Shown here piece by piece: positions 195-25,202 of a stretch of DNA of 45,997 bases (position 1 is the stretch's first letter; each line of letters starts with the position of its first letter). The DNA is from Candidatus Poribacteria bacterium. GTDB lineage: Bacteria > Poribacteria > WGA-4E > WGA-3G. Both the position numbers and the translations under genes were made by a program. Location: contig JAGWBU010000016.1 of NCBI GenBank assembly GCA_021295735.1, positions 1 through 45,997 of the forward strand, in the 5' to 3' direction. The notes under the pieces are model-generated. The model saw only the letters and a list, made by a program, of their open reading frames with translations, ran no database searches and was not told the origin of the DNA.

Positions 195-240
195 TCTTCC
201 TTTTTCAATCACGTACTTTTTTCTGATAAATGCAACCTTC
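195..240 (+). promoter_or_regulatory. Conserved upstream element, copy 1
   Basis: This stretch runs CTTCC, then a T-rich tract ending TTTTTTC, then AAATGCAA. It matches in order and spacing the stretches upstream of the other two sigma-propeller genes (4299-4340 and 7421-7463). It lies 55-100 bases before the start codon. A shared promoter or operator, perhaps recognised by the ECF factors themselves, is inference. The rest of 52-294 holds an inverted pair (CCCAATAA at 139-146, TTATTGGG at 171-178) and no gene. Confidence 0.4.
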
Positions 241-294
241 ATAAGCCAAATAGCATCTTTATATTAAAAGATTAGTCTATTTGTGAGGTGATCC

Positions 295-3243
295 ATGAAA
301 CATGATGATGCTGAGTTGATTGAACGTACACTTGAAGGTGACCAGCAAGCCTTTGCTGCACTTGTAGAAAAATACCAAGAACAGATACACGCGTTGGCGT
401 GGCAGAAAATTGGTGATTTCCACATTGCACAGGAGATAACACAAGATGCTTTCATTACTGCGTATCAAAAACTTTCAACCCTCACACATCACAACCGATT
501 TGCTGGATGGCTCTATGTCATTACCAGTAATAAGTGTAACATGTGGCACCGAAAGAAAAAACCGAAACTACAATCTCTGGAGGAGACAGACCCAATGGAA
601 TTAGAAGAGGTGTATTATTCCGAATATACGTCTCGTCAACGTGAAGAAGCAGCGAATCAAAATCAGCGAGCAATTGTTCGGAAGCTGCTCAATAAACTCC
701 GAGAAAGTGAACGGACAGTGGTAACGATGCACTACCTTGCAGGTTTAACATGTGAAGAGATCGGTAAGTTTTTGGGTGTATCGCCGAACACGGTTAAAAG
801 TCGGCTGCATCGCGCCCGGGAACGCTTAAAGAAGGAGGAAGCAGTGATTCAAGAAAATCTTAGCAGTTTCCAACTGCCAACACAAATGACAGAGAATATC
901 ATAGCACCATCAGCAAATAAACCTTTGGTGCCGTTGGCAGTTTCCGCTGCCTCAGCAATAATAGTTTTTCTGCTGATAGGGTTTGGGGCGCAAAATCTAA
1001 TTCGGTTTCAGAAGCCGTATAGTATAGAGGCAACATCAAAACCAACGATTGAAATCGTTGATGCTCCAATAGTCTTGGAATCCTCTGCCAAACCTGTAGT
1101 TAGCAATCAAGTTGGTCGTTCTGATGTTCTCAGTAACAATGATGGAACGGGGCAGAGATCGGATACATCACTATTTGCTGCAGCAGAATCGGATGATGCA
1201 GAAATCTCAAAGTCTGAACCGAATTGGATTCAGGCGAAGGGTTTAGAGGGGGGTGCAGCCACTTATCTCTTTGCAACAACTCGCGGTGACATGTATGCAG
1301 GCACACTCAGCACTCTTTACAGACTGGCAGAGGATGGTAGCACATGGAAACTCGTCAATACTCGTAATGCGTCCTCATTCTCCGTACAAAATAGGGTAAT
1401 CAGCTGGGGACCAATGGCAGAACAAGGCGATACCATTTATCTTGCAACAGAGACAGAAATATTAGCTTCAACAGATAGGGGCGAAACTTGGGATTCACTC
1501 GGTCCTCATCCTGGTGGTATCCCAATTGACTTAGTTATAATAGAACAAGATTTATATCTTGGTTTCCCCGAAGGTATTTACCGTTCCAAAGATGGTGGTA
1601 AATCTTGGTTGGGTTGGACACATTTAATTAGCAAGCAAACTGGCAACAAAATTCGTACAATTGCCGCTATTAAAAATACCTTTTTTGCAGGGACCGATAA
1701 AGGTCTTTATCGTCTCTATGACGGTGGTATCTGGGAAAAAATACACATCGGTCAGGGAAATGTGCAGGAAAAAGAAGTTGACATCCATGATTTGGCAGTT
1801 GCAGAAGATCGACTCTACGTTGTAGTTGTGCCAGTAAAATCAAGAAGTACCTATAATGTTTCGACTGCCTCGGGAATTAAAAAGTCTGTTAGAAATTTGG
1901 GTTGGAATCTCTACCATTCAAATGATACCGGTGAAACATGGGATTTAATTGCCCATAAAGAAAAAATTATGGATAAGAAAAATAAGTTTTATTTTCCTTT
2001 ACAGGTATTTGGACCCAGAGGACATCAATTTCCGTTTACGGGAATGGGACCAAATTTAAAGGTCAAGATAACTGCAGTAAAAGGGAGAATTGTAGTGATA
2101 GACACGGAATACCAATCCTACTCAATTGATAGAAACGGAAATTGGGTATTGGATGATACTTCTAACAGGAGAGTACAAAACATATCTCCAACACCTGTGA
2201 TGTTAAACCCAAATACCATATATACTTCCAACACATACGGCATTTCTCGTAGTACTGACGGTGGTAAGTCATGGCAACAATTTAATTCAGGGTTAACAGG
2301 TGCCTCCATCTTGACTTTGGCTGCTGTAAACGATTCCTTGTATGCGATCACATCTGAAGGACTTTTCACTTCATCTGATGAAGGTGAATCGTGGACAGAT
2401 ATTTTCCTTGTAGGCGGAGATTTTACTATGAGTCTGAAGATTTTCCACGAGTCAGTCTATGTTAGAACTGATAGAATGTTAGCGCAAAGTACATTTGTCA
2501 ATAATGTGCCTATTCCCATTATGAAAACAGGAGATATGAATATTAATCGTCTATCAACAAAAAACGGCAAGCAAACCTTCATTCGTAAAACCCCTACTAT
2601 TGAACAAAGTACCCCATCTCCCATTGGAACGGTACCAGGGAACTTTGCCGTTAGCGGTACAACCTATTATGCAGAATTCGACAAAAAACTCTTTAGGTGG
2701 AAACTCGGTGCTACTGAATGGTACAACACAGGGTTAATAGATGAAGGTGAACCGCCTCCGTTTGATGAATTTACTGACATCCTTGATAATACCGGATTCA
2801 AACTTGCCGTTTCGGATAAAACTGTTTATGTCGGCAAGCGGGATGGCAAACTTATGCGTTCTCTGGATGAAGGGGAGACTTGGAACGATGTCACTGCCAA
2901 TCTTCCATTTTCTGTTGACTATTTCAAGGCAATGGCTTTTGCTGGTGAAAATGTCTATGTTGCGACCAATAAAGGTGTTGCGCGCTCAAGCAATGGCACG
3001 GACTGGCGAACGATAACTGACTCAGAAGGAACACCTCTTGTCATAATCAGGTTCGCGGTGGATGGCACAACGCTATATGGTCAAGCTGGGCAAAAGATGT
3101 ATCAAATAAAAGAAGATTTGGATAAGTGGGAGCAGGTTACCTCGGAAATACCATATCTCATTTCAAGTCTTGATGTTAATGGGAATACCCTCTATGTCGG
3201 AACTTTTGGTAGTGGTGTGCTACACTTTTCACTTGACGAATAG
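295..3243 (+). CDS. Membrane-tethered ECF sigma factor fused to Asp-box beta-propeller (paralogue 1)
   Basis: The protein has 982 residues. Residues about 15-88 are sigma-70 region 2 (DAELIERTLEGDQQAFAALV, then AQEITQDAF and FAGWLYVI). Residues about 125-178 are region 4, a helix-turn-helix with EEIGKFLGVSPNTVKSRLHRA. A hydrophobic segment at 211-231 is a single transmembrane helix. The remainder is a repeat domain with Asp-box motifs (STDRGETW, SKDGGKSW, SNDTGETW, STDGGKSW, SLDEGETW), as in sortilin/sialidase-type propellers. Predicted layout: cytoplasmic sigma part and extracytoplasmic propeller. The ATG follows GAGGTGATCC, a strong ribosome site. It is the first of three tandem paralogues, and an acidic membrane protein follows after 62 bases. 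What the propeller binds is unknown, as is whether the sigma part must be released by proteolysis to act. Confidence 0.93.
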   Translation: MKHDDAELIERTLEGDQQAFAALVEKYQEQIHALAWQKIGDFHIAQEITQDAFITAYQKLSTLTHHNRFAGWLYVITSNKCNMWHRKKKPKLQSLEETDPMELEEVYYSEYTSRQREEAANQNQRAIVRKLLNKLRESERTVVTMHYLAGLTCEEIGKFLGVSPNTVKSRLHRARERLKKEEAVIQENLSSFQLPTQMTENIIAPSANKPLVPLAVSAASAIIVFLLIGFGAQNLIRFQKPYSIEATSKPTIEIVDAPIVLESSAKPVVSNQVGRSDVLSNNDGTGQRSDTSLFAAAESDDAEISKSEPNWIQAKGLEGGAATYLFATTRGDMYAGTLSTLYRLAEDGSTWKLVNTRNASSFSVQNRVISWGPMAEQGDTIYLATETEILASTDRGETWDSLGPHPGGIPIDLVIIEQDLYLGFPEGIYRSKDGGKSWLGWTHLISKQTGNKIRTIAAIKNTFFAGTDKGLYRLYDGGIWEKIHIGQGNVQEKEVDIHDLAVAEDRLYVVVVPVKSRSTYNVSTASGIKKSVRNLGWNLYHSNDTGETWDLIAHKEKIMDKKNKFYFPLQVFGPRGHQFPFTGMGPNLKVKITAVKGRIVVIDTEYQSYSIDRNGNWVLDDTSNRRVQNISPTPVMLNPNTIYTSNTYGISRSTDGGKSWQQFNSGLTGASILTLAAVNDSLYAITSEGLFTSSDEGESWTDIFLVGGDFTMSLKIFHESVYVRTDRMLAQSTFVNNVPIPIMKTGDMNINRLSTKNGKQTFIRKTPTIEQSTPSPIGTVPGNFAVSGTTYYAEFDKKLFRWKLGATEWYNTGLIDEGEPPPFDEFTDILDNTGFKLAVSDKTVYVGKRDGKLMRSLDEGETWNDVTANLPFSVDYFKAMAFAGENVYVATNKGVARSSNGTDWRTITDSEGTPLVIIRFAVDGTTLYGQAGQKMYQIKEDLDKWEQVTSEIPYLISSLDVNGNTLYVGTFGSGVLHFSLDE

Positions 3244-3305
3244 GTCTCCTACAGTCAAATTAACCTACCTTAAACATAATAAAACTCTAAACCAATGAGG
3301 TGATA

Positions 3306-4070
3306 ATGATGAAACAATTTAATTGGAAACATGTGGGAATAGCATTATTTTTGACCATCGCGTTATGTGTGGGGTTTATGCTATATAATCAATGGGATGT
3401 CGCGCGTTTTCAAAAGTCGTTAGTAGAAGGGACAACGCAAATATCACAAGAACAGCAGTCAGAAAAGTCTGGTGAAACACCTCAACAACCAACAACATTA
3501 ACCCTGTCTAAAACATCTGACTCTGAGAATAACAAAATAGAAATAGCTGACAATGAAGAAAAGGATGTGGAAGAGGCTACATTTTATGACTTCTTAGATT
3601 TTCTTGACGAACTTGAAGCGGCAGAAATGGAAAAACTCATTGAAAGCCTTGATTTAGAAGAGGATGAGAAAAAGGCGATTGCAGAACTTGCTGAACAGGA
3701 ATCTGATATCACAGAAGATATTCATCCAAGTAATATGATTGTTGACTTGATGGAATCAGGAGTTGCATCTCTTGCTGATCTCATTGAACTGATGGAAGAA
3801 TCCTCAACCTTAATGTCTGAAAACGTTCAGCAAAGATTCGAACCAGTATTGCAGACACTTCAAACTATGCAGGAAAATGGTGGTGGATTAATATTTCACC
3901 GCCCCCCAGCAGACACAAGTAATTTTATACTTTTCTTCATTAATCCAAGTCCATCACAGCGACCGCAATTAGACTTAGACGCAGACAATTTGATCCATGA
4001 GATTCCATCTGATGATCCAAGCAAGGGTTCACTTTTCTTGCATAAAGGTAATTCAATCATAATTGATTAG
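3306..4070 (+). CDS. Acidic single-pass membrane protein of unknown function
   Basis: The 254-residue product begins MMKQFNWKHVGIALFLTIAL, with one hydrophobic helix at about 10-27. A polar linker rich in Q, S, T and E follows, then an acidic helical part (residues about 75-125, with EELEAAE-like and LDLEEDEKKAIAEL stretches), then a less acidic tail. An in-frame GTG at 3300 is open, but the sequence GAGGTGATA at 3297-3305 is the ribosome site for ATG 3306 or ATG 3309, so GTG is unlikely. It lies 62 bases after the first sigma-propeller gene on the same strand with no terminator between, so co-transcription is likely. I recognise no family. A partner or regulator of the sigma-propeller protein is a guess from position only. 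Confidence 0.82.
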   Translation: MMKQFNWKHVGIALFLTIALCVGFMLYNQWDVARFQKSLVEGTTQISQEQQSEKSGETPQQPTTLTLSKTSDSENNKIEIADNEEKDVEEATFYDFLDFLDELEAAEMEKLIESLDLEEDEKKAIAELAEQESDITEDIHPSNMIVDLMESGVASLADLIELMEESSTLMSENVQQRFEPVLQTLQTMQENGGGLIFHRPPADTSNFILFFINPSPSQRPQLDLDADNLIHEIPSDDPSKGSLFLHKGNSIIID

Positions 4071-4226
4071 GTCATAATACTATTTCTGATAATATAATTA
4101 TCTTTTGTAGCACAAACTTTATGAAGATTAAATAATTATTTGGGTAATTATGCAGAGAAAGCCCAGTATGCTTGCAAAGCGCCTATCAGAAACAATTAGA
4201 ACGCACCTCTTGGTAGTTGTAAACAA

Positions 4227-4254
4227 CACTCCTATTAGTAGGTGTGCTTTTTTT
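4227..4254 (+). terminator. Rho-independent terminator
   Basis: The arms CAC-T-CCTA and TAGG-T-GTG close on the loop TTAG and are followed by CTTTTTTT. It ends the transcript of the first sigma-propeller gene and the acidic membrane protein. The same terminator sequence recurs at 7349-7375 after the second paralogue, as part of a longer duplicated block. Confidence 0.7.
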
Positions 4255-4298
4255 ATAATTCACCATAAATCCTCTTCTCATTTCTGAAAAAATTATCA

Positions 4299-4340
4299 TT
4301 CTTCCCTCCAAATTGCAATTTTTTCAAAAATATGCAATTC
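4299..4340 (+). promoter_or_regulatory. Conserved upstream element, copy 2
   Basis: It holds TTCTTCCCTCC, then TTTTTTCAAAAATATGCAATTC. It lies within a block of roughly 125 bases (about 4231-4358) that is nearly duplicated at about 7353-7480. The pattern is also found upstream of paralogue 1. A TATAAT at 4384-4389 lies closer to the start codon and may be the -10 box of a housekeeping promoter, though its -35 is poor. A regulatory role is inferred from conservation only. Confidence 0.45.
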
Positions 4341-4416
4341 TACACCATAAAATCGCGTTTTTAATTACAGAGGGTTCTTTTGTTATAATTGAATTTTTTC
4401 TATATGAAGGTGTCCG

Positions 4417-7245
4417 ATGAAAAACGATGATTCTGAACTAATTCAACGCACATTAGAAGGTGATCAACACGCTTTTGCTCAACTTGTAGAAAAATACCAA
4501 GAGCAGGTACACACCCTTGCGTGGCAGAAAATTGGGGATTTTCACATCGCACAAGAAATTACACAAGATGTTTTCATCACTGCATATCAAAAATTCTCGT
4601 CGTTCACACACTACAGGCAATTTGCAGGATGGCTTTATGTTGTTACAAACCGAAAGTGCATTGCGTGGCACCGAAAGAAAAAAATCGAAACACAATCATT
4701 TGATGAGACAAATCCCGTTGAGTTGGAGGAGGCATATTATTCAGAATATATAGCCCAACAACGCGAAGAAGCGGAAAAAGAAAAACGCCGTACTATCGTT
4801 CATAAACTGCTCAGTAAGTTACAGGAAAGTGACCGTACAGTGATGAGCCTCTATTACCTCGCTGAAATGTCATGTGAAGAAATTTCTGAGTTTTTGGGGG
4901 TGGCTCCCAATACAGTACGGAGTCGGCTCCACCGCGCACGTAACCGCTTAAAGAAGGAGGAAGCAGTGATTCAAGAAAATCTTAGCAGTTTCCAACTGCC
5001 AACACAAATGACAGAGAATATCACAGGAAGTAAACCTTTAGTGCCGTTAGCAGTTTCCGCTGCCTCAGCAATAATAGTTTTTCTGCTGATAGGCTTTGGT
5101 GCGCAAAATCTAATTCGGTTTCAGATGCCGTTTAGTTTGACTGCACAATCTGAACGAACAGTTGAAATCGTTGACGCACGATTAGTCTTGGAATCCCCTG
5201 CAAAACCTGCAATTATCAATCAAGTTGGTCGTTCTGATGTTCTCAGTAACAATGATGGAACGGGGCAGAAACCGGTCACACCGCTATTTGCTGCAGCACA
5301 ATCGGATGATACTGAAAGAACTAATTTCAAAGGCACATGGAGACAGACGAATGGTCCTTACGGTGGCAAGATAACAACGCTTTATAAAACCACTCATGGC
5401 GTGCTCCTTGCGGGGACAGAGGGCGCAGGTATATTTCGCTCCACTGATAATGGAAACAACTGGACACCAGTTAATACTGGATTAAACAATGAAGGACGAT
5501 TCATGGATGTTACTGCATTCGCGGAAAAGGGGAATAAGATCTATGCAGGCAGGTGGGAGGCATTATACTTTTCTACTGATATTGGCAACACTTGGCAACC
5601 CGTATCTGCGATCCAAGGCCCTGGGTGGATCAGTGGCATTGTTATTCATGATGACCATATCTACGTTAGTACAGAGGGCAGAGGTGTTTGGCAGTCAAAT
5701 GATGGTGATTCATGGGCACAAATCAATGATGGACTCGGAATAACGGTTCATGATATGCTCTTACATAACGACCTGCTAACAGTGATGGAGGTTTTTAGAC
5801 TCTCAAGGCATGGGACAATGCTGGTTGCTACTACAAGAAAAGGGCTCTTTCGTAGAACAGGGAATGAAGACTCGTGGACACTTACCAATCCAGTTGTCGT
5901 TAAGCATTCAGGTAGGGTTGAGTCGGAAAATAATTCGCAAGATAAACCAGGATTAAATCCGTCACCTGAGCAACATTCTTCATCTGATTTACGTGTTGAG
6001 TCGTTCGCTTCAATGAAACACTTACTTTTTGTGAGTGGAAATATAGGGAAAAAATCTGGGATCTTCCGGTCAAATGACGCAGGCGACTCATGGATGCTCA
6101 TCACCCCAGAAAAAGTAAAAGCAGAAGGTGATGACGTTCAGACAATTGCAGTGCAAGGTGGGAGACTATACGCTGGCACTTATGATGGTTTGGTTTATCT
6201 TTCGGAGGATATGGGTGATTCCTGGATATCAATCAATGATGGGGTAATGCATGGTGGTGTATTGTCATTGTTACCAATCAATGATAATACTGTCTTCATT
6301 GGCACATCTAAAAATGGAGTCTTTCGCACAACAGATGCAGGGAATTCTTGGGAAGAATGCAACACTGGTATAATAAATACATCTGTCACCAAATTAGAGG
6401 TTATTGGTGATAAACTATACACTGTTGTTGGAAAAAAAATTGTTTATTCTGCTGACGGTGGAGATACATGGCTGCCAGTAAACGATCCTTCAATGCAGAG
6501 CAAATTTGGTTCTCCAACCATTTGTGTATCAGATGGAGAACTCTACATCGCTGCTTACTTTGGTGATGATAAATATATTCCGCCTTTTTCAGGTCGTGAG
6601 GGTGATAGTGTTTACAGATTGAATAGAAAAAATAACACTTTGGTTAAACTCTTCACAGATATGGACTTGTATGGAATTGTAAGTATGGATGTAGTTGGCA
6701 ATACATTTTATATGGGCACATGGAAAAGTGGAGTCTTCCAGTGGGAGCAGAAAACGGGTCTTACCAAACTTGGTTTGGTACATCACAACATCTGGCTATT
6801 ATCTGCAAATAGTGAGAATGTGATTGTGGTTGCAGGGCATCGGGGTACAGTGGACAATGAAATCTACCGTTTTAAAGAGAACCGTTGGGAGCCTATTCAT
6901 ACAGCAGAAATGATTGATGGCGGTTTGACTGATCTCAAATGGGTTGGTTCGACATTATACGCGACCTTTTGGGAAAACGGCGTATTTCGTTCCATGGATG
7001 GAGGCGATACTTGGACATCCATCAACGATGGACTGGATGAAACATCTGCTACATCAATTGGAACAAATGGTACTGAGGTGTATGTCAGCACATCTACAGG
7101 TGTTTTCAAATGGATAGAAGAGAAACAGCATTGGAAGTCGATTGGTTCTCATACTCAACAGGTTTCATCCTTAGTAGTAGTTGACGGTTTTCTTTACGCT
7201 GGTACTTTCAATAGCGGAGTGTATAAGATTCGGATTGAGCAATAA
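4417..7245 (+). CDS. Membrane-tethered ECF sigma factor fused to Asp-box beta-propeller (paralogue 2)
   Basis: The protein has 942 residues. Sigma region 2 is at about 15-88 and region 4 at about 125-178 (EEISEFLGVAPNTVRSRLHRA). The transmembrane helix is at 207-228, and a long Asp-box propeller follows with motifs such as STDNGNNW, STDIGNTW, SNDGDSW, SEDMGDSW, TTDAGNSW and SMDGGDTW. The part from the end of region 4 through the membrane helix is almost identical to paralogue 1 at DNA level, including a 79-base identical block. The propeller is much more divergent from paralogues 1 and 3, which suggests a different ligand. The start ATG follows GAAGGTGTCCG. The gene has its own upstream element and lies behind a terminator, so it is probably a separate transcript. 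Confidence 0.93.
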   Translation: MKNDDSELIQRTLEGDQHAFAQLVEKYQEQVHTLAWQKIGDFHIAQEITQDVFITAYQKFSSFTHYRQFAGWLYVVTNRKCIAWHRKKKIETQSFDETNPVELEEAYYSEYIAQQREEAEKEKRRTIVHKLLSKLQESDRTVMSLYYLAEMSCEEISEFLGVAPNTVRSRLHRARNRLKKEEAVIQENLSSFQLPTQMTENITGSKPLVPLAVSAASAIIVFLLIGFGAQNLIRFQMPFSLTAQSERTVEIVDARLVLESPAKPAIINQVGRSDVLSNNDGTGQKPVTPLFAAAQSDDTERTNFKGTWRQTNGPYGGKITTLYKTTHGVLLAGTEGAGIFRSTDNGNNWTPVNTGLNNEGRFMDVTAFAEKGNKIYAGRWEALYFSTDIGNTWQPVSAIQGPGWISGIVIHDDHIYVSTEGRGVWQSNDGDSWAQINDGLGITVHDMLLHNDLLTVMEVFRLSRHGTMLVATTRKGLFRRTGNEDSWTLTNPVVVKHSGRVESENNSQDKPGLNPSPEQHSSSDLRVESFASMKHLLFVSGNIGKKSGIFRSNDAGDSWMLITPEKVKAEGDDVQTIAVQGGRLYAGTYDGLVYLSEDMGDSWISINDGVMHGGVLSLLPINDNTVFIGTSKNGVFRTTDAGNSWEECNTGIINTSVTKLEVIGDKLYTVVGKKIVYSADGGDTWLPVNDPSMQSKFGSPTICVSDGELYIAAYFGDDKYIPPFSGREGDSVYRLNRKNNTLVKLFTDMDLYGIVSMDVVGNTFYMGTWKSGVFQWEQKTGLTKLGLVHHNIWLLSANSENVIVVAGHRGTVDNEIYRFKENRWEPIHTAEMIDGGLTDLKWVGSTLYATFWENGVFRSMDGGDTWTSINDGLDETSATSIGTNGTEVYVSTSTGVFKWIEEKQHWKSIGSHTQQVSSLVVVDGFLYAGTFNSGVYKIRIEQ

Positions 7246-7285
7246 ACTGCTTATAGTTGATTTTACAGTTTACATTATTCTTTTC

Positions 7286-7306
7286 GGCGCGCTTACAAAG
7301 CGCGCC
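7286..7306. repeat. Perfect GC-rich palindrome
   Basis: GGCGCGCTT and AAGCGCGCC form a perfect 9-bp stem with the loop ACA, 40 bases after the stop of paralogue 2. A related hairpin (CAAGCGCG/CGCGCTTG) lies at 36020-36048, and a decayed form is visible near 4155-4172. It belongs to a set of short dispersed palindromes in this genome. It has no T tract of its own; a proper terminator follows at 7349. Confidence 0.6.
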
Positions 7307-7348
7307 TACCAATAAATTATAATGCGCTCCTATTAGTAGGTTTTATAA

Positions 7349-7375
7349 CACTCCTATTAGTAAGGGTGCTTTTTT
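7349..7375 (+). terminator. Rho-independent terminator
   Basis: CACTCCT and AGGGTG arms around ATTAGTA, followed by CTTTTTT. It is a close copy of the terminator at 4227-4254. A partial extra copy (CTCCTATTAGTAGG) lies just before it at 7327-7340. Confidence 0.6.
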
Positions 7376-7420
7376 ATAATTCTGCATAAATCCTCTTCTC
7401 ACATTTGAAAAAATCTTCGT

Positions 7421-7463
7421 TCTTCCCTCCAAATTTGCTTTTTTTTCAAAAATATGCAATTCT
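7421..7463 (+). promoter_or_regulatory. Conserved upstream element, copy 3
   Basis: It contains TCTTCCCTCC, a T-rich tract and AAAAATATGCAATTC, nearly identical to copy 2. Closer to the gene, TATATTAAAAGAT at 7484-7496 is identical to 260-272 upstream of paralogue 1 and absent from paralogue 2. The leader of paralogue 3 therefore combines features of the other two. Confidence 0.45.
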
Positions 7464-7518
7464 GCACTATAAAATCGCGTCTATATATTAAAAGATCAAT
7501 TTCCTATTGAGGTATCAG

Positions 7519-10500
7519 ATGCAATACGACGATTCTGACCTGATTCAACAAACACTTGAAGGTGATCAACACGCCTTTGCTGCACTTGTGGAAAAATACC
7601 AAAAACAGATACACGCGTTGGCGTGGCAGAAAATTGGTGATTTCCACATTGCGCAAGAGATTACGCAGGATGCGTTCTTTACAGCATTCCAAAAGCTTTC
7701 GACTCTCACAGACCATAATCGTTTTGCCGGGTGGCTCTATGTGATTGCCAATCGCAAATGTATTGCGTGGCACCGAAAGAAATCACCACAACCACAATCG
7801 TTAGAAACGACAGACCCAGTTGAATTAGAGGAGGTGTATTATTCAGAATATATGACACAACAACGCGAAGAAGCTGCAAATCAAAAGAGACGTGCAATAG
7901 TCCAGAAATTGCTAAGTAAGCTACAAGAAAGCGAGCGCACAGTCGTAAATCTGTATTATATCGCAGGAATGACATGTGAAGATATTGGCAAATTCTTGGG
8001 TGTATCTACTAACACAGTCCGTAGTAGACTCCACCGTGCGCGTAACCGATTAAAGAAGGAAGAAGCAATGATTCAAGAAAACTTGGGCAGTTTCCAACTG
8101 CCAACACAAATGACAGAAAACATTATGAAGGGAATTTCACAACTAAAACCCACAACTCCATCTGGAAGTAAACCTTTAGTGCCGTTAGCAATATCCGCTG
8201 CATCAGCAATAATAGTTTTATTGCTGATAGGCGTTGGGGCGCAAAATCTAATCCGTTTTCAGAAGCCGTATAGTATGGAAGCAATATCAAAACCAACGGT
8301 TGAAATCGTTGAGACGTCACTTGTTCTGCAATTTCCAACAGAACCAGCAGTAAGAAATCAGGTTGGACGTTCAGATGTAAACGGTCAAAGCAACGGTACA
8401 GGACAAAAACCAGATGCACCTCTGTTCGCTGCAGCACAGATAGATGATATAGAAATTTCAAAGTCAAAGCAGCAATGGGTGCAAACCAAAGGTCCCGAAG
8501 GTGGCATAGTTGCTACCTTATTTACAACAACCCGCGGGGACGTATATGCAGGGGCGCTCAGTAGTCTCTACAGACTTACGGATGATGGACAAGCATGGAA
8601 ACTCGTCAACACAATCAAAGATCATTTATATACTGCACAATACGCAGGAAAAACATGGTGGCCTGTAGCAGAGCGGCAGGATACACTTTACATTGCTACC
8701 AGCAAAGAGATATTAGCTTCTACAGATAGAGGCGAAACATGGGACGTATTCTGTGAGTGTATAAAAGGTCAGCTTGTTGGTATGGTAATAACTGATGGAA
8801 TCCCCGGCGCGCAAGCCGACGTGACAATCTACCTTGCATATACAAACGGCATATTCCGCACGGATAATGCTGGCAAATCGTGGACACCGCTGTCTGATGG
8901 TATGACAGATAGGAAAATCCATGCAATCGCTGCAATTGAAAACACCGTCTTTGCTGGTACCGATAAGGGACTATATCGCCTAAAATCAGAAGGATGGGAA
9001 CAGTTGCCTGTAGGCGGTAAAGTGGAAAACATTCGAGCGTTGGCAAGTGCTGGACACCGACTCTATGTTGCTGTAGGAAAGGAGTCTAAGAATCAGATAA
9101 CTTCTCAATTCTTGTCAATGATGACAACACGAAAGACTCCCAAGTCGTTATATCGTTCAACAGACTTGGGAGAATCATGGAAATCAATAGACCCTGAAAA
9201 AGGGCCTATGAAAATGTCTGGAACAACGACTTTTCGGTTCTCTGACAAAAGTAATTCGGAACCTACTAACACAATAAAAATAGTTGCACACCAAGATAAC
9301 CTTTTAGTCATTGATCGGGGTGATTCTCACTTCTCAAACGATTCTTATTATTCAAATGATGCCGGTAATAATTGGAATATCTTGCCAATAAGTCTTTCAG
9401 ATAGTGACTCACTATCCATCATCACAATGTTGAACAAAAACACATTCTACAGCAGCGGAAATGATGGCATCTATCACACAACCAATGCCGGCAAGACATG
9501 GCGTCAACTCAACACTGGATTGGTGAATACTTTCATTTTCAATTTAGTCGCTGTAAATGACACGCTCTATGCAAACATAGGGCCAGAACTTGTTGCCTCA
9601 TTTGACGGTGGTGAATCGTGGACAAATGTACTCGGTAGAACTGAGAGCATCAATGGTATGTTGGAATCTAACGGTGTTTTCTACGTCAAGGGTTCGAAAA
9701 AAATGGCACCACGCCTTTACCGCTTGTCTGCTGAAGATAAACGGGTAACCTCAATCCCTGGAATGCCGATTTTTGAGGTACCGGACTTTAACAAGCTAAT
9801 GGAGGAAGAAATCGGAAATGCATTTCTTGCTACACTTCAGGAGAAGGCTAAGACAGACCTTGCAGCAGAAAAAAAGATTGATCCTGAACATTTTGACGCA
9901 GACAAGTTCAATGAAACCTACAATAAGATTGTGCAGGAAAATCTAAATAGATCCTTTAAATTTTCATTTGGTAGTTTCGCTGTTAGCGGTGCAACCTACT
10001 ATATGGAATCCGATCAGAGACTTTTTAGATGGGAACCCGGCACTTCTGAATGGTACGACACTGGATTAGTAGATGAAAGTGAATCTGGTCATGTTGATGG
10101 CAAATTTGACGATTTTGATTCTATCGGCTTCAGAATCGCTGTATCGGGAGACATCGTTTACGTCGGCAAAAGAGATGGACACCTCATGCTGTCGTATGAT
10201 GAAGGTGACATGTGGAACGATGTCACCACAAAACTTCCATTTTCTGTTGGACGTTTCAATGATATTACTTTCGCTGGGCAAACTGTCTATGTGGCGACCG
10301 ACAAAGGTGTTGTGCGATCAAACAATGGAATCAAATGGCACACACTCATTGATGCTGAAGGAACGCCTCTCGCTATGAAAAGATTGGCAGTCGATGACAC
10401 AACGGTTTACGGCGAATATAACCATAAAATATATCAATTGAGCATGGACACTGGCAAGTGGCAACAAGTAACGCCAGAAATCCCACATTTTGTTTTTTCT

Positions 10501-10587
10501 TTTGACGTTGATGCAGACACCCTCTATGTGGGAACGGCAGGAAAGGGCGTACTCCGCTTTTCACTTGACGATTCGGCAGATCAATAA
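7519..10587 (+). CDS. Membrane-tethered ECF sigma factor fused to Asp-box beta-propeller (paralogue 3)
   Basis: The protein has 1022 residues. Sigma region 2 is at about 15-88, region 4 at about 125-178 (EDIGKFLGVSTNTVRSRLHRA), the membrane helix at about 218-240, then the Asp-box propeller (STDRGETW, TDNAGKSW, STDLGESW, TTNAGKTW, SYDEGDMW). The frame is open from a TTG at 7507, but GAGGT at 7509-7513 is the ribosome site for ATG 7519, and MQYDDSDLIQ then aligns with the starts of both paralogues. The propeller is closest to paralogue 1 (both have FAVSG.TYY and LFRW). It differs by a charged helical insertion of about 60 residues encoded near 9765-9960 (EVPDFNKLMEEEIGNAF and onward). Confidence 0.93.
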   Translation: MQYDDSDLIQQTLEGDQHAFAALVEKYQKQIHALAWQKIGDFHIAQEITQDAFFTAFQKLSTLTDHNRFAGWLYVIANRKCIAWHRKKSPQPQSLETTDPVELEEVYYSEYMTQQREEAANQKRRAIVQKLLSKLQESERTVVNLYYIAGMTCEDIGKFLGVSTNTVRSRLHRARNRLKKEEAMIQENLGSFQLPTQMTENIMKGISQLKPTTPSGSKPLVPLAISAASAIIVLLLIGVGAQNLIRFQKPYSMEAISKPTVEIVETSLVLQFPTEPAVRNQVGRSDVNGQSNGTGQKPDAPLFAAAQIDDIEISKSKQQWVQTKGPEGGIVATLFTTTRGDVYAGALSSLYRLTDDGQAWKLVNTIKDHLYTAQYAGKTWWPVAERQDTLYIATSKEILASTDRGETWDVFCECIKGQLVGMVITDGIPGAQADVTIYLAYTNGIFRTDNAGKSWTPLSDGMTDRKIHAIAAIENTVFAGTDKGLYRLKSEGWEQLPVGGKVENIRALASAGHRLYVAVGKESKNQITSQFLSMMTTRKTPKSLYRSTDLGESWKSIDPEKGPMKMSGTTTFRFSDKSNSEPTNTIKIVAHQDNLLVIDRGDSHFSNDSYYSNDAGNNWNILPISLSDSDSLSIITMLNKNTFYSSGNDGIYHTTNAGKTWRQLNTGLVNTFIFNLVAVNDTLYANIGPELVASFDGGESWTNVLGRTESINGMLESNGVFYVKGSKKMAPRLYRLSAEDKRVTSIPGMPIFEVPDFNKLMEEEIGNAFLATLQEKAKTDLAAEKKIDPEHFDADKFNETYNKIVQENLNRSFKFSFGSFAVSGATYYMESDQRLFRWEPGTSEWYDTGLVDESESGHVDGKFDDFDSIGFRIAVSGDIVYVGKRDGHLMLSYDEGDMWNDVTTKLPFSVGRFNDITFAGQTVYVATDKGVVRSNNGIKWHTLIDAEGTPLAMKRLAVDDTTVYGEYNHKIYQLSMDTGKWQQVTPEIPHFVFSFDVDADTLYVGTAGKGVLRFSLDDSADQ

Positions 10588-11045: not shown

Positions 11046-14000
11046 CTATTTGGTCACCAGTTTCAAATCATCAAAAGGTTTGCCTTCAGTATCAGTAATT
11101 CGAAGATAAAATCCCCAAGGTAGTAATTCATTACAGACTTTGACAAGGATAGTGTTTTGCCCTGCGATAAGTGTCACAGGGATGGTTCGCCGGTCAATTT
11201 GTGCGCCACGAGTTCTTCTGTGTGCATATACTTTACTACCGTTCAACCATACTTTACCTTGGTCATCACTATCAAATCGGATTTGTGCTTTCCGTTCCTC
11301 AGGTGAGGTAAAGGTTATCCATGCGTAAGCGGTGTGCCAATTTTCACCGTTGCTAAAGTCAAAAAATCCGTCAAAGGTATCATCAGTTCCCCGTTTCCAA
11401 GTCACTTTTCCAGAGACCGCCTCATATTTTGCATTGGTGTCTATCTCCGTTGTTTCTTCTGGGATATAAGCGGTGTTGTATCCGACACCTTTTGTATTGT
11501 CGAATGGACCGAGTGTTAACCATGCAGTTTCGGGGAAAAAGCCCGTTTTCAGAATATATGATTTTGATTTGTCCATCATTCCGAGTTCACGGCAGAATTC
11601 AGCTAATGATAAGTTAGCATTTAGCTGGTTGTCTGGTTGGTCGGGTATAACGTCAATCAATTTTCCTATCATTTCCGTGTAAAGTGTTTTGTCTTTGACA
11701 TTCTTACCTATTTGAGAGATACCTGTAAGCAAATGTTCTATTCTATCTCCGCTGGCTTTTCCAGACTGATTTATAAGGTTAAGGCTGTGTTGTAAATTTT
11801 CTAATGCCTTATCATACTGTTCATTCGCCAGGTATGCGTGACCCAGGGTTGATAGGTAGTTTGAATCTGTTCGGGTTTCAGCTGCTTGTTTTGCAAGTTC
11901 CAATGCAATTTCCGGCATGATATTCTGACTCAGAAGATGCTGAGCAAGTTGAGAAAATTCCTCTGCGTTTTTTCCCTGATTAGGTTCATCTTTAAGTATT
12001 TCTAACCATTTTCTATATGCAGACGCTGCTTTATCCGTATCACCTGATTCAATATAGGTATCGCCTAACATTTTGTGGAGAAAAGGACTGTTTTGGGTTT
12101 CTTCGCCAAGTTCTTTAAGAATGGCAAGCCTTTTTTCTGTATATTCTTTACCGCCGTAAAGTTTCAAGATGGCTTTAACAGCTGAATCATATTCTGCTGG
12201 TTTGAGAGAAGCTTTTAAGGCTTGACGATATGCGGCTTCGGCTTCTGATAAGTTATCTTGATTTTTATGAGTTTTTGCCAACGAGTCATAAAGTTCATAC
12301 GAGTCGGGTTCAAGTGAGATGGCTATTTGATAAGCTGCGGCCGCTTTTTGTAATCTCTCTTGCTTGTTTGTCTGCGTTGAACCCTCGTATAGGTCCCCAA
12401 TTTTTTTGTGCCATTGCGCTTTATCAGGTTGAAGTTCGCTAATCTTTTCGTATTGCGCGATTGCTTCTTTGATCTTGTTACTTAATTCGTAGTTTTGTGC
12501 AAGCGCGAGGCGCGCATCTACATCGTTTGGGTTATCTTCAATTTTCTTAATCTGTTCAGGAATCTGTTTTTGGTGAAGATTTCCGTCTCTATATGCTTGT
12601 TGGATTGCTTTTTCCGCGTTCTCTTTTTTTCTTCTATCGCTGGTAATACTTTTCAACTGTTGATATGCTTCAACAGCTTCTTCATACTGTTCTGTCGCGA
12701 GTGCACTTTTCCCGATGAGATCATATAATATCTCCTCTTCCCATCTGGACCCACCATGTCTGTGCATCGTATTGGCAGCAATAGCGTCTTTAAACAGTTT
12801 GATCGCAGGTGTATACATTTTACTTTCATAACAGATAGAACCAAGTGCACAGAGTAACCACATATCGCTCCTACGGGTACTTGATGTAAGTGCAGTAGTG
12901 GCTTGATTTAACATTTCTTTTGCCTTCTCTGATTTTCCGCTTTTATTAAGTGCGGCAGCAGCGTAATAAAAACTGCGAACATTACTCGGTTCTGCTTTGC
13001 AAAGTGCCTGATATGTCTCTGCTGCCTTCTCATGGTTTTCGGATTTCCTATATATTTCTCCGACTATTTCAAGGGTGATAGCATCATTAGGCTTCTTTGT
13101 AAGCTTTTCTTCAAAGATTGTCTGCAATTGGTGCAATTTTCCTTGCTTCTTATAGGCTTTAATTAAAGTATCACGCGCTGTATCATCACCGAACTTGATA
13201 TCAAAACCTGATGGACCCCTACCTATAGTGGTGGAATTTGAATTGGGTTGATACATTTCATCATGAAGTTCAATTGCCAAATCATTCTCACCACGGCGGA
13301 CGTATTCCTGCATCAGTTCCATATAGGCATTATTTTGTTCGTAACTGCTGGACGTCATGTTGAGCGCTTCCTTATAGGCACTGATGGCTTTTTCAGATTC
13401 TCCCTTAGTACGATATTGACGGGCAAGTTCCAATTGCATAGTGAACGTAAGAGTGCCATTCTTTTCTGCTTCCTTTAACTTTTCTTCTAATTTACCTTGA
13501 CGTCGATAGAGTGATAACAGTTGTCGTTCAACATTCTGTTGTTCCCATTCACCGGTTGTCAATTGAAGAGCTTTTTCATAAGCCTTGACGGCTTCATCTA
13601 ACTTCCCTTGACTGTCAAGGTCACGTGCGATTTCTTGTTGCATAGCAAAGGTAAGTGCCCCTCGCTCTTCCGCGTCTTTTAGAAATTCATCAAGTTTCCC
13701 TTTACGCTGATAGATTTGCATCAATTGTCGCTCAATGTTCTGTCGTTGTCCATCCTGTGCAACGTATTTGAGTGCTTCGTTGAATGCTTTTTCAGCATCA
13801 TCAAGTCTACTGTTGCGAAGGTAGAGCCGTCCTAATCGTTCATAGGTTTGTGCATCCCCTGGTGAAAGTTCAATAGCTTTTTTATAATTTGTGATAGCGT
13901 CTTCAATTTGACCATTGCTACCGTAGAGTTGCGCGAGCCGAGCGTAATGTATACCGTTTTCAGCGTCATCCTGAATATATTTCAAGGCGAGTTGAATTGC

Positions 14001-17000
14001 ATCATTGAGTTTCCCAACGCTTTGATATGCCTTTATAATTCCATCTTGGTATCTTGTATTTTCAGGATCAGCTTCAAGTAAGCCTTGCCAAGTTTTAAGT
14101 GCCTTTTCATGTTGATTTTGGCGCGAATAGAGGCCGGCAAGTTGCGCGCGAGATTCGAGGTCTATTGGCATCGCTTTCGCGATCTGCTCGTAAATTTCTA
14201 TGGCTTCAGAGATTTGATTACGGCGCATGTGTTGTTGTGCGATTGATCGCTGCACCCCAATGTTCATTCCTGCTGTTTTAGGTGTTGACAGCTGATTGCC
14301 TGCAACGCCATCCCGTCTCTGTTTGATTGTCATCAATTGTTCTTGTGCGCGTTCTTTATAATATTGTTGTGCTGCAAGATCATTGATTACTTCGGTTAAC
14401 AGGATTTCTGCTTCGTCCCACAATTCGTGTTTAATATATGTTTGTGCAACGTTCTCTTTTTCATAATATTGTGGTGCACCACGCCGCATCATAAGTCGAA
14501 GTGTCCCCATTTTTAGTATAGCATTCTGCGCCTTCTCTTTTTCGCCTTTTTGGGAATATGCTGTTCCGAGTTTTCTATAGGTATCTGAAAGTTGCCAGTA
14601 ATTCTGTAGATCTATATTCTGAATTGTGGCTTCAAGTGTGCGAATTTCTCGGTCAATGTCCCCTTCTGCTTTATATGTATCAGCTACAGTATTTAGCCAT
14701 CGCTGTCTTAATGATAAAGGAGCATGTTCAAGAAGTTTTTCGACAATTGCATCTGAACCTTCTAAGTCGTTCGTTACAATTTTCGCAATAGCGGCGAGGT
14801 AAAGTGATGGCGGATCAATTTTTTCATTGCTTATCTTCCCATCGTATTTCGCTGCAAGCGCTTTTATCTCTTCCTCTGTTTCATCAAACTTTGAGAGTTT
14901 TAAAATGATGCTAACTTGCGCATCGGGGGTCACAGTTTGCAGCTTCTGCCTCAAAAGCTGAATTGCTTTATCACGTTCACCAGCAGACGTATAGGCATCA
15001 GCTAATTGGAGGTACATATTTGTCTTGTCGGATTCTATGAATTTTTCATATATTTGAATTGCAGCTTTATAGTTTTTGTTTCTGATGCATTCCTCTGCAG
15101 CCTGCCTTGCGAAATCATTGCCTCTGGAATATTGGGTATCAAGGTCTATTAGTTCCTTTGCAAGTGTAACCAATTTATCAATTTCACCTGCTTCAGTAAA
15201 TGTTCGAACTATATCCCAATAGTTAGAATATACTGCGTTAATATTGTTTTTCTCTTTTAGAAGAATGCTATATTGGGTTACAGCCTTTTTTGATTGTCTA
15301 TTCCGTTGCAGCATCTGTGCGTATCGCATTCGCGTTGTATAGTCTTTCGGACGCAGTGCAAGCGCTGCCTCAAAAGCTTCTGAAGCCTTATTGATTTGAT
15401 TTCTACCTTCGTAGAACGATGCTAATCTTATTTGGGTTTGGAATGAGTTTGGATTTTTCTCAGCCGCTTCAATTAATTTTGCTGCTCGGTTGCCGCCAGA
15501 CATGGAACGACTGGCGAGACGTGCTGCTTGTTGAAATTGCCAGGGGTACAATGTTCGCCCGTAACGGTCGCGTTGGTTGGCGAAATGTATGGCGCGTGCA
15601 GCTATACGTGCTGCATCTTGTCCCCGACCGAGTTGTGCCAGATGTTCGCTTAATTGCACGAGGAAGTTCGCGTCACGTTCACGCATTGCCAAGGTCATTG
15701 TTTTCTTCGCGACAGCTATAGCGTACTGCGTGAGACCGTTCTGCTGGAGTTTCTGTGAAAACCGAAAAAGTTTGCGGACACTACTCGGAGAATTTAGAAC
15801 TTTTGTGATCAAGTCACGGACAATGAGCGTATCACCTACATGGACTGCGACCTGTAACGTCAGGTCGTAATATTGACGGCGGTTTCTGGGATCTGCATCA
15901 GCGAGATTTTCCAGGAGTTCTAATGCTGTCTTATGTTCACCTGCCTGAATAGAGACCAAAACAGTGTTGAGTTTAAGCGTAAGATCATCGGAGAATTCCT
16001 TTTGTAAACCAGCAAGGATTCCCAATGCTGTATCGCGTTTATTTTCCCACCAATAGCAATAGCACATCGCTAACGCGGGATAAATTCTGTCTCTACCTTC
16101 AGCCGCTTCTAACTTCGCTTGTAAGATAGTATATAATGCTTGTTGCTGATTATTTATCCACAACTGATTGAAAATTTGCTGCAGAAACTCCAGCTTATTC
16201 TGGCTGTAGTAGGTTGTAGGTGCGGGAAAATTTGATTGAATAGCGGCATATCCTCCAAAAGAGTAGTTGGATCTTCCGAGTGCCTGCGTGCGGCGCGGAT
16301 TTGTAATTCTCGGTTTTGTGCGTTCAAAATATTGCCAATAGAGGGCAATTGCTTTGTCAATATTTCCACCACGAAGATAGGTAGCAGCCAGTGTTTGATA
16401 GATGCGAGAATACTGTTGGGACAATTGTGGTGTGGCTGTAGCCGAAAATTGTGCAATCATTTTCTCCGCTTCGTCTGTCCTTCCCATCTGTACAAAAGTT
16501 TCTACTAACATGGAAAATATATTCGGAGTGATTACTTTTATTTTCGCAAGATCATCTAAAAGTTTTCCAGCATCTTCTTTCTGCCCTTGATTGTTAAATC
16601 TTCTGGCGAAGTCTGCCATATACCATTGTCGTGCTTCTGGCGTCAACCAAGCCAATTCTTCAAGTTGTTCCATTAATGTGTCATAATTAAGCTTTTCCTG
16701 CGTTTGGAGCAGATTCATCTGCATACCTTGATACGCTGGATTGTTCGGAGATGCAGCGATTAATCTTTCGGTAATTTGTTCAGATTCCTGACGTTTTCCA
16801 GTTAGTATATATAGTTGTGCTAAAAGTTCAAGTGTCTGTACGTCTTTTGGATTCTCATTAGCATTTTTCTCAAATTGTTCAACAAGTTCGTTTAATTTCC
16901 CTTCCTCTTCCATAAATATTTTTAACTGCACAAGTGCACCAGCTTGTGCCTCTTCAAAACTAATGGGACTCCATGCTTGTGCTGTTGTGTATCCGTACGG

Positions 17001-20000
17001 CTGCCTTTGGATACGATTTAGTATATTTTGTGGAAGGGTGAGTTTATTTGTATTGACTCCAGGCGGACGGTAGATGGCGGATCGCACACTTGTCGTTGTG
17101 TTATTAGTGGTGGCAGTCAAGGTAGTATCAGAGCCAGGTTCGGGCATTGCTAAGATCCGCTGAAAGTGGGGCATTGCTCTTTCCGCCTCGTTTATTTCAA
17201 CAAGTGTAGCACCGATTTGGTATAGCGCGAGATGTGCGTCTTTGCCCGAAATTTTTTCTGCTGCGCTGTCCAAGGCAAAAAGTGCTTCTTCTAACAAACC
17301 GTGCCGAATCAACAATTTGGCGAGTTTGACTTCAGCTTCAAGGGTCTGATTTTTGGCATGAAGTACTTTAGACCATGCTTGGATGGCTTCTTGCTCGCGC
17401 CCGACATCAAACAGAAGTTCACCGAGTTTTTGCTGATGTGTAGGATCGGGATTTGCTTTGACGAGACGTTGTTGATAAGTAAGTGCTTCCTGGAAATCGC
17501 CAAGGTCCAGACTTATATCAACAAGTTGTGATAAAAGTTCCGCGTTTTCGCGTTGGCGGTCTAATGCGCTCGCAAGTTGGAATCGTGCGTTTGAAAGATC
17601 ACCTTCAATCCGATAGACTTGTCCCAATGCTAAAACCGGTCCTACACCGGATGTATTAGATTTTGCCATCTGCTTCAGTTTTTCTTCAAGTTCTCCGCTT
17701 CTACCTAAATCGTAATATGCTTCGGAAAGAGGTTTAATAAAACTGAGTTTGTCGCTAATATTATCGCTTAACTCCCAACATCTCCAGTACTGTGCGATTG
17801 CTTGTCGGGAGTTGCCTGAACTGTTGTAAAGCGCAGCAAGTTCTGTTCGGATATCAATTGCTTCAGGTCGTAGTCGAATTGCTTGCTTATAGCTGTCAAT
17901 TGCCGCTTCATAATTGGCAGACTGTTTGGCGATTTCAGCGAGCAGTTGATGTCCCTCTGGGTTCCGTGGGCTATGGGCGACTACCTGTTTCGCTGCATTT
18001 GTGGCAGCCTCAAAGTCCATTCCTTTTAAATATGCGTTTGCGATATTCGCATGGTATTCACGCGCATTAGTGCTATCAATCTCAGTTAAGTACGTGTAAA
18101 TTGCAATCGCTTCATCACGTCTACCTTGTTTGACGTAGAGATTTGCTGTCTGACGATTAACACTTATATCATTAGGTTGAAGTTCTTTGGCTTTCAAAAG
18201 GATTTCGAGGGCATAAGTATTATTGCTCAACTTTAGGTACATTTTCGCGAGTCGCTTCAGTTGTGTGAATTTATCGGTATCTGCGAGTCCGGGTTTTTCA
18301 AGTTGTGCTTCTGCGTCTTCAATTTTTTCAACGAGCGTCCCTTGCTGCCGATAAAGTTCAATTCGCTGATCGTCCATCTGTTCTGCAAAAAAATCATTGG
18401 GGGCAAGTTTAATTGCTTCATTATATTCTAAAAGTGCATCATCGTATTGCTTGTTGCTCAGTAGGCGTTTTGCTAAAGCCTCACGAAAACGGTAAGCGTC
18501 GGGCATTAGTTCTACCGCTTTTTTGCTTGCATCAATTGCTTCGGTGGGAAACTTTTTTGCTTCTAACAACCGTGCTAAACGGTCATAATTCTCGGCAGTA
18601 CTCTTGTCATCTGCAACCATCTGGTTCCACGTCTCAATTGCCTTGTCACGGTTGGCTTGACGGAAATAGAACTCTCCAAAATATTCAATGTAGTCAAGAT
18701 TTTGAGGGGCAAGCGAGATCGCCTGCTGATACGCAGCAGCTGCATTTTCCATCCATTCGTGTCCAGTATAAATTTCAGCAAGTGTAAGGTGCGTGCTGGC
18801 ATTTTGCGGATCTCGGTCAATCATTCGTTGATATACTGCCTTTGCCTTGTCTTCATTTTCAAGCTCCAGATATAATTTACCAAGTTCTCGGTAGATGCCG
18901 AAATCATCAGGTTGTTGTTCGCTAAGTGATTCGTATTCGGCTGCAGCCTCTTCAAACTTTTCAGCGTTCCGGAGAGCAGTTATAAGATTTAGGCGGAGAC
19001 CAGAGTCTGTTGGTGCAAGTTCTAACCCTTTCCTATATGTGTCTGTTCCTTCCTCAAGCTGCTGATTTTCAATATATGTTGCGGCAAGTAAACCGAGCAA
19101 TTCAGGGTCATTCGGGTTTGCTTCAAGTTTACCTTGATAATATGTAATTAGGTCTGTCCAATTTGCATCTGCCGAATAAATTGCGATAATCCTATGTTGC
19201 AGGTCTTTTCTAAGCCAATTGCCGGTGGCAGTTAGGTCCAACGCCCTATCGTAATGCTCACGCGCCTTTTCATAGTCACCTGTATCTTCATGTATTTTAC
19301 CGATTTCCCGTAGACTGAGACACCTACGATACGGATCGTCTTTTTTAATATCAATGATGGCTTGGTGTTGTGCGATTGCTTGCGGATAGAGTTCTTTTTC
19401 TCGGAATAGGTCGGCGAGTTCAATGCGGGCAAATACGTTCTGCGGATCAAGTTCAGAGATTTTTTTCCATACCTGAATCGCATCGTCTAACTTATCTCGA
19501 CTAAAATAGGCATGTCCGAGTGCCTTGTAAATTTCTGTTAACTCTTCAGGAGATACAGATTGTAACTGTTCCGATAGGGTTACTGCTTTGGTTAACTCAC
19601 GAATTGCGTCCTCATGTTGGCGTAGCGTCACGTGTAGCTGCCCGAGTGCAAAATAGGCGTAGTAATTGTTAGGTGCAAGTGCTACTGTGCGTTGATATGC
19701 TGCAAGTGCTTCCTTATCCTTACCAAGTCTTTTATAAATATGCCCCAAAATAAGTTGAATGTTTGGGTCGTTAGGTTTGGCTTGTGTTTCTGCTTGATAA
19801 TCTGCGACCATTTTCTCTAAACCGTCACCTTCAAGATAAAATTGATAAAGCCGATCAAATGTGCTGCCTTCTTTCGGCTTTTGGTTGAGCATTAACTTGT
19901 AACGTTCAATGATTTTAGCATCGCTCGTTTCATCTTGCGCGAGAATGATGGGAGAAAGAAGTAGGGTTGAAAACAGTAGATATAACACACATAAAGCAAT

Positions 20001-23314: not shown

Positions 23315-23562
23315 TTTCTCTCCATAAGTTCATACAACGTATCACATAACGTGAGTGGCACCTGAATTTTGTAAGGTTTGCGTTATACTTATTTTAGAGT
23401 TGGCAATTTGAGTTGTTGTCGGAGATATTCAGGCAGCGTCCAATGTCAACTTGGTAAAGTTTTGAGAGAAAATTAAGATGAGATTTGAACAACCTTTAAT
23501 ATTGTACTACAACCCGTATTTCTATGTCAAATAGAAACGCATGGTGCGTGATATGTTTTTGC

Positions 23563-23590
23563 TTGACGATAATCTTATCCCATGTATAAT
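23563..23590 (+). promoter_or_regulatory. Sigma-70-type promoter of the sulfatase gene
   Basis: TTGACG at 23563-23568 and TATAAT at 23585-23590 are separated by 16 bases, close to the housekeeping consensus. The expected transcription start near 23597 gives a leader of about 28 bases to ATG 23625. It lies inside the longer open frame that starts at 23541, which argues against that earlier start. Confidence 0.7.
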
Positions 23591-25185: not shown

Positions 25186-25202
25186 CATGATGATACACCA
25201 CT

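Follow-up and report, generated by a model that had tools for sequence, protein, structure and literature searches.

Predicted membrane-tethered sigma factors with beta-propeller heads form a multicopy family in Poribacteria

The stretch analysed here (the window) comprises positions 1 to 45,997 of contig JAGWBU010000016.1 from a Candidatus Poribacteria bacterium (assembly GCA_021295735.1), and it carries three genes, designated genes 1 to 3, whose products each combine extracytoplasmic function (ECF) sigma factor domains, a predicted membrane helix and an Asp-box propeller. An earlier reading made from the nucleotide sequence alone (the sequence-only reading) had proposed that sigma regions 2 and 4, one membrane helix and the propeller occur in a single chain in all three cases, and this proposal is upheld by Pfam matches, hydrophobic segments and strict Asp-box motifs. 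Sigma70_r2 and Sigma70_r4 pass their cut-offs in all three proteins, none of which has a Pfam match to sigma region 3, and the best solved relative of the family sigma profile is SigW (E 1.5e-36), with AlgU/SigH and RpoE also matching. Each protein contains a single hydrophobic segment (mean Kyte-Doolittle values of 2.51, 2.51 and 2.60). Sortilin-Vps10 passes its cut-off in all three proteins, and DUF6242 does so in the first two; the Pfam model for BNR/Asp-box gives 25.1, 12.8 and 23.2 bits in proteins 1, 2 and 3, below its cut-off of 27 bits. Strict Asp-box motifs number 6, 6 and 5 per head, and the corresponding means for shuffled heads are 0.007, 0.011 and 0.007; with about 0.01 expected against 5 to 6 observed, a chance origin of these matches is ruled out. 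The three genes were also said to lie in a row. They are indeed neighbours on the same strand, but they are not strictly consecutive, because an open reading frame (ORF) at 3306-4070 separates genes 1 and 2. For gene 3, the TTG at 7507 chosen by the ORF finder was rejected in favour of the ATG at 7519, because the TTG sits within a ribosome-binding-like TTGAGGT and the family alignment begins at 7519. The features of this region are as follows.

227..265, + strand: ECF-type promoter of gene 1, 27.4 bits; -35 TGCAACC, -10 region AGCATCT
295..3243, + strand: gene 1, sigma, transmembrane and Asp-box protein, 982 amino acids (aa)
295..864, + strand: sigma part of gene 1; Pfam region 2 at aa 23-89, region 4 at aa 127-180
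925..981, + strand: predicted membrane helix of gene 1, aa 211-229; hydrophobic segment and family topology
994..1080, + strand: conserved juxtamembrane block of gene 1, FQKPYS...EIVDAPIV, about aa 234-262
1210..3240, + strand: Asp-box head of gene 1, about aa 306-982; AlphaFold model and Foldseek matches to GH74
3306..4070, + strand: small predicted single-pass membrane protein between genes 1 and 2, 254 aa
4329..4367, + strand: ECF-type promoter of gene 2, 27.1 bits; TGCAATT ... CGCGTT
4417..7245, + strand: gene 2, sigma, transmembrane and Asp-box protein, 942 aa
5038..5094, + strand: predicted membrane helix of gene 2, aa 208-226; hydrophobic segment
7451..7489, + strand: ECF-type promoter of gene 3, 33.8 bits; TGCAATT ... 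CGCGTC
7519..10587, + strand: gene 3, sigma, transmembrane and Asp-box protein, 1022 aa from ATG 7519
8179..8235, + strand: predicted membrane helix of gene 3; hydrophobic segment

The arrangement, of whose exact tandem form the sequence-only reading knew no other case, is not singular: the genome of the window (5.07 Mb in 230 contigs) holds 29 related genes, and tethered ECF sigma factors with C-terminal parts outside the membrane have been described. A core composed of linker, helix and juxtamembrane block is recognised in the window's own genome in 18 genes by motif and in 22 matches by profile. Across 84 Poribacteria genomes, that of the window among them, the core profile matches all 58 that belong to the same family, between 1 and at least 54 times each (the maximum is a lower bound, as no more than 54 candidates per genome were scored), for a summed count of at least about 1,550; of the other 14 genomes in the order it matches 9, 1-3 times each, and it matches none of the 12 Poribacteria genomes outside the order. 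The named relatives are all Poribacteria among the best 80 of 164 matches, which fall at 70 loci and reach best-segment identities of up to 91%. Gene clusters resembling that of the window recur in relatives, for instance as five matches within 18 kb of genome G003, and the idea of a special three-gene island was rejected, as the family is spread across the genome and its relatives. For the analyses below, 160 family genes were collected, a set that excludes loci L001-L030 and L058 (parts of wider stretches) as well as genes with identical first 250 aa; it represents about one-tenth of all core matches (some 1,550), and class counts drawn from it are no census.

A shared motif, ATGCAA(C/T)(C/T)nT followed by GCGTC, lies upstream of the family genes in two spacings that are one base apart, with the second block ending mostly about 30 nt ahead of the start codon. 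ECF (group 4) sigma factors characteristically have a promoter with an AAC-type -35 and a CGT-type -10 element upstream of their own gene (PMC8103513), and this hallmark is present here, with T in place of the C of AAC at about one-third of the sites and a variable -10 element. The promoter matrix was built from 134 non-redundant upstream regions, own-genome members included, after 4 of the 160 genes had been left out for want of upstream DNA and 22 of the remaining 156 as similar. It finds sites of at least 14 bits in 117 of the 134 regions and in 1 of 670 shuffles. In cross-validation the count is 111 of 134, a value that is partly dependent on the full matrix, whose site picks were reused, and in a control of 354 upstream regions that retained hidden family genes, the 23 matches of at least 14 bits comprised 14 before family genes and 9 others. 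Conservation is concentrated in the two blocks, with similarities of 0.68 and 0.65 for the shorter spacing, versus 0.39 in the sequence upstream and 0.45 for the spacer, and of 0.74 and 0.56 for the longer spacing, versus 0.31 and 0.43. Across both strands of the window, exactly three sites exceed 10 bits, one before each of the three genes, and in the genome as a whole the promoter precedes 26 of 28 testable members, which belong to the training set. A generic sigma-70 promoter scan was uninformative (37 found, 30.0 expected, standard deviation 5.5).

The promoter sequences also co-vary with the sigma domains that they precede. Among the top 20 co-varying pairs in 89 non-redundant members, sigma-2 residues pair with -10 positions in 10 of 11 cases and sigma-4 residues with -35 positions in 9 of 9 (Fisher test, 1.2e-4). 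The strongest pair links K/R168 with the last two bases of the -35 element, S169 ranks sixth and R175 twenty-fifth; on the basis of work on RpoE, we take residues 168, 169 and 175 to fall within the -35 recognition helix. The sigma part thus looks functional, because ECF-type promoters stand upstream and co-vary with it.

Sites of this kind are not confined to family genes. The collected loci (1.19 Mb, partly overlapping) contain 156 distinct sites of at least 14 bits, 124 before family genes and 32 elsewhere. Of 25 non-family sites that reach at least 18 bits, 19 have a downstream gene, and 18 of these 19 genes encode products that start with a hydrophobic segment and were judged by eye to be membrane proteins, lipoproteins or secreted proteins. 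Seven of the 18 are one kind of small single-pass protein, which may be a standard target of the family promoter. These seven sites lie near sigma genes (L043:1332 and 5120, L115:1659 and 5175, L138:9329, L114:9259 and L109:9228). A genome-wide pattern search returned 29 matches versus 12 in the reversed control, with strong extra sites before genes for a MoxR-like ATPase, an ABC ATPase and two membrane proteins, all named by eye. The top genome-wide site, C52:69225 (locus L191, 38.2 bits), has no ORF of at least 60 aa starting within 250 nt downstream and perhaps serves a small RNA or a short gene.

The predicted topology places the sigma domain in the cytoplasm and the head outside, as the sequence-only reading had expected; it is favoured because of a positive charge bias across the helix and the low cysteine content of the heads. 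In 127 non-redundant members, taken from the 142 that have a helix, the 15 aa on its N-terminal side hold on average 2.92 lysines and arginines and the 15 aa on its C-terminal side 1.61; the N-terminal count is higher in 95 members, equal in 24 and lower in 8. Cysteine makes up 0.92% of the sigma part and 0.25% of the head in Asp-box members. An alignment of 101 of 125 listed sequences (A5), chosen for a hydrophobic segment and a length of at least 301 aa, reveals a conserved membrane core: mean information is 3.26 bits in sigma-2, 2.82 in the helix and 2.73 in the juxtamembrane block, and 1.85 in the stalk that follows. Outside the sigma domain, the sole invariant residues are two prolines at the cytosolic end of the membrane helix (101 of 101 rows); the glycine of this helix is kept in 99 rows and a proline and a tyrosine of the juxtamembrane block in 98 and 96. 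Helix-breaking residues suit the substrates of intramembrane proteases. Ahead of the membrane, the cytosolic segment contains a conserved FQLP as well as a helix whose hydrophobic positions are conserved, and in a model of a paralogue (first 300 aa, 101 sequences) this helix, residues 198-208, has a predicted local distance difference test score (pLDDT) of about 80 and the sigma domains of about 90. The closest solved chain to the paralogue model is SigW from its complex with RsiW.

The protein of gene 1 was modelled with AlphaFold from 42 sequences (mean pLDDT 67.6), giving confident sigma helices, low confidence at 187-307 and an all-beta head in which about 14 four-stranded blades can be counted by eye. 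In a Foldseek search, GH74 xyloglucanases ranked first (6mgj, E 3.9e-19), and the periplasmic domains of BT4673 and BT4663 appeared further down the list of 50; sequence identities to these matches are 11-16% and whole-query template modelling scores (TM-scores) are low, at 0.17-0.37, and the arrangement of the two head halves is therefore unsure. With these blade counts and low-scoring matches in mind, the modelled fold appears closest to the twin propellers of GH74 type. A sequence search with the head matched only four Ycf48-like chains (E 0.002-0.003).

Loose motif counts divide the 160 family genes into 86 with Asp-box heads, 29 with WD40 heads and 45 with other or cut-off heads; Pfam analysis of 10 members found WD40 in 3, Asp-box-type propeller families in 1 and an M61 peptidase in 1 that has no helix. 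At L057:4505-7483, a family sigma domain without a membrane helix is followed by an M61 peptidase part with weak, sub-cut-off PDZ matches. A quick tree built from the sigma domain alone (115 rows) has 36 changes of head class, versus an average of 49 with shuffled labels, so heads are inherited in part and often exchanged. The starred branches of the sigma tree force at least 14 changes for Asp-box and at least 11 for WD40 heads.

Tethered ECF sigma factors are already known, as IutY and groups ECF48, ECF52 and ECF53; what is notable here is the scale, the heads and the promoters. The following comparisons concern passages of the cited sources. IutY of Pseudomonas putida (ECF243) is a single-chain sigma/anti-sigma protein that is cut by Prc and RseP and becomes an active sigma factor on truncation (PMC5411451, PMC8999054). 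Like IutY, the proteins described here combine an ECF sigma factor, one membrane helix and an outside domain in one chain of predicted topology, apparently with no separate anti-sigma factor; unlike IutY, whose periplasmic part is an anti-sigma domain and which acts together with a receptor in the outer membrane, they carry a large propeller and occur in tens of copies per genome. A FecR-like periplasmic anti-sigma domain gave no Pfam match at E of 1 or below in the three window proteins. A C-terminal fusion with membrane helices also characterises ECF48, ECF52 and ECF53 of Actinobacteria, among which SCO4117 (ECF52) has a carbohydrate-binding domain outside; those proteins have a zinc-finger domain before the membrane (PMC8999054), whereas Pfam detects none in the three window proteins.

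ECF57, with an example from Singulisphaera, has a WD40-like C-terminal extension and two conserved cysteines that link sigma-2 and sigma-4 (PMC8999054). A relation to ECF57 is possible because the present family has potential counterparts of this pair, C81 (kept in 88 of 89 members) and C153 (63 of 89). Some of its members bear WD40 heads (29 of 160 by motif, 3 of 10 by Pfam). Compared by description, the Asp-box heads, as in the window genes, and the membrane core would set the family apart, neither being mentioned in the account of ECF57 in PMC8999054. The SigI/RsgI sets of Clostridia offer a parallel: they too consist of numerous paralogues that regulate their own genes, every one with a -35 specificity of its own and a sensor on the outside (autoregulation would apply in our case as well), but their sigma factor and sensor are two proteins, and SigI joins its sigma-2 domain to another C-terminal domain instead of sigma-4 (PMC6056542). 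ECF fusions in the passages of conflict-system literature were considered and set aside as having another architecture. Within literature on membrane-bound, propeller and WD40 ECF sigma factors, ECF57 and Poribacteria sigma factors, whose coverage is thin for ECF classification and Planctomycetes, no description of the family was found; a Poribacteria genome paper reports abundant WD40 domains, and the words 'sigma' and 'Asp-box' are absent from its main text as available (PMC3909097).

In addition to the 29 family genes, the window's genome holds 17 other ECF-like genes of lower identity. Nine matches to the zinc-finger anti-sigma family zf-HC2, one of them below the cut-off, occur at eight places, each adjoining one of these 17; thus, in a genome-wide search that covered the zf-HC2 type, such a gene adjoins 8 of the 17 other ECF-like genes and none of the 29 family genes.

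We propose, with a probability of about 0.58, that the family consists of one-chain, autoregulated transmembrane sensor-sigma factors that are silent at the membrane and are released by two-step proteolysis. The domains, topology bias, promoters, co-variation, head exchange and lack of an adjoining zinc-finger anti-sigma gene are supported at the level of sequence; the autoregulation, silencing, ligand, target genes and cleavage are inferred, the last mainly by analogy with IutY. The N-terminal ECF sigma domain would reside in the cytoplasm, with one helix through the membrane and the beta-propeller head outside the cytoplasmic membrane, where it would sense a ligand, plausibly a glycan or a surface protein. 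In the absence of signal, sigma would be kept at the membrane away from RNA polymerase, perhaps aided by the conserved cytosolic helix. A signal would elicit cuts near the membrane, first outside and then by a protease of the S2P/RseP type, and the freed sigma would act at the conserved upstream promoter to transcribe its own gene as well as adjacent genes for membrane or secreted proteins, for example ORF 3306-4070. Paralogues would read somewhat different promoters, and many sensors could therefore work side by side. A more detailed version, which we offer only tentatively, pictures at least 54 tethered sigma factors in some genomes, with a shared membrane core, swapped heads and their own promoter variants, in which the conserved pair of helices between sigma-4 and the membrane would form a built-in anti-sigma element, cleavage would occur at the proline-flanked helix, and the heads would read molecules of the sponge host or matrix.

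If the proposal is correct, an uncultured branch of sponge symbionts senses its surroundings through dozens of single-gene units with swappable heads and distinguishable promoters, apparently needing no separate zinc-finger anti-sigma factor. The family would then offer a natural series for studying the silencing and release of a tethered sigma factor, the avoidance of cross-talk between paralogues and sensing by sponge symbionts, and with the predicted promoters the question can be tested directly in a laboratory host.

Several observations weigh against this proposal. The co-variation weakens as redundancy is reduced, with p values of 0.03, 0.15 and 0.004 for the top 20, 50 and 100 pairs at n=40 and no significance at n=15, the strictest redundancy cut; sequence relatedness may contribute to it. 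The promoter is absent from two own-genome members, L041 and L043, the latter with an uncertain start. Some family members have no membrane helix, and the membrane and juxtamembrane part is of low confidence in the models of both gene 1 and the paralogue. Gene 1 lacks 9 residues of the cytosolic helix and gene 2 lacks 12, so the helix would be dispensable for silencing in some members. The absence of a zf-HC2 neighbour is shared by 9 of the 17 other ECF-like genes, and therefore this absence alone is no proof of self-sufficiency. Genes for two M50 and three S41 proteases are present in the genome, in keeping with the cleavage step, but M50 proteases were found in 14 of 14 control genomes, so their presence says little, and the cleavage step itself is proposed mainly by analogy.

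The principal competing explanation, which we consider unlikely, holds that sigma acts while tethered: the ligand would alter oligomerisation or the cytosolic linker, and the membrane-bound sigma would recruit polymerase uncleaved. Regulators of the ToxR/CadC type act while membrane-tethered, and the conservation of the helix and of the juxtamembrane block is what a conformational relay would lead one to expect. However, sigma must enter polymerase and reach the -35 and -10 elements, for which the tether from sigma-4 to the helix in genes 1 and 2 allows only about 20-30 residues, and IutY, the characterised single-chain precedent, is cleaved.

A second possibility, which seems to us rather improbable, is that small membrane proteins such as that encoded by ORF 3306-4070 serve as a separate anti-sigma factor or co-receptor, the head being only part of the receptor. 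This ORF, with one N-terminal hydrophobic segment by eye, starts 62 nt after gene 1, with which it is probably co-transcribed; a promoter search upstream of its relatives gave no site above 0 bits in 17 rows, and it has no promoter site of its own. Its position speaks for such a role, and so does the finding that 13 of 26 genomes, counting that of the window, hold relatives (E 0.001), as does the sharing of the promoter by other small single-pass proteins near family genes. Yet the remaining 13 genomes have no relative at that threshold, the ORF matches no Pfam or NCBIfam family and no anti-sigma domain, and no ORF of at least 100 aa follows genes 2 and 3 on the same strand within the array.

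That many copies are decaying, or are decoys that direct no transcription, is harder still to credit: truncated members exist, and out-of-frame deletions interrupt two neighbouring genes immediately before or within the helix, but sigma residues are conserved over the 89 non-redundant members and co-vary with their promoters, and nearly all listed matches are free of internal stops. The two split genes lie on contig C192 of the window's genome (L049:5409-6068 and L049:8600-9271). In both, the deletion falls where the helix begins, so that a soluble sigma with a strong promoter remains and the head is in another frame, which may represent decay or natural untethering. The least credible alternative, a head that stays in the cytoplasm as a protein-binding platform with the helix as a plain anchor, can appeal to helix-less members in which a peptidase or another C-terminal part follows the same sigma domain, but it is opposed by the positive-inside bias (95 of 127), the low head cysteine, the GH74 enzymes as best-ranked folds and the periplasmic BT4673/BT4663 sensor domains also listed.

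Further sigma fusions may exist in the window's genome, where distant ECF-like matches at C68:61954-62487, C177:47073-47627 and C187:2329-2850 lie within frames of 1435, 412 and 401 aa. Within the window, the array is adjoined on the - strand by an ORF of 2992 aa (11046-20024) with a signal-like start and, by eye, TPR-like repeats. Genes for a sulfatase, a WD40 protein, a PhyH-type dioxygenase and an amidase stand in a row at 23541-30757, and ORFs for a ResIII-type helicase and an N6/N4 DNA methylase, possibly a restriction-modification pair, occupy the - strand at 32917-39987.

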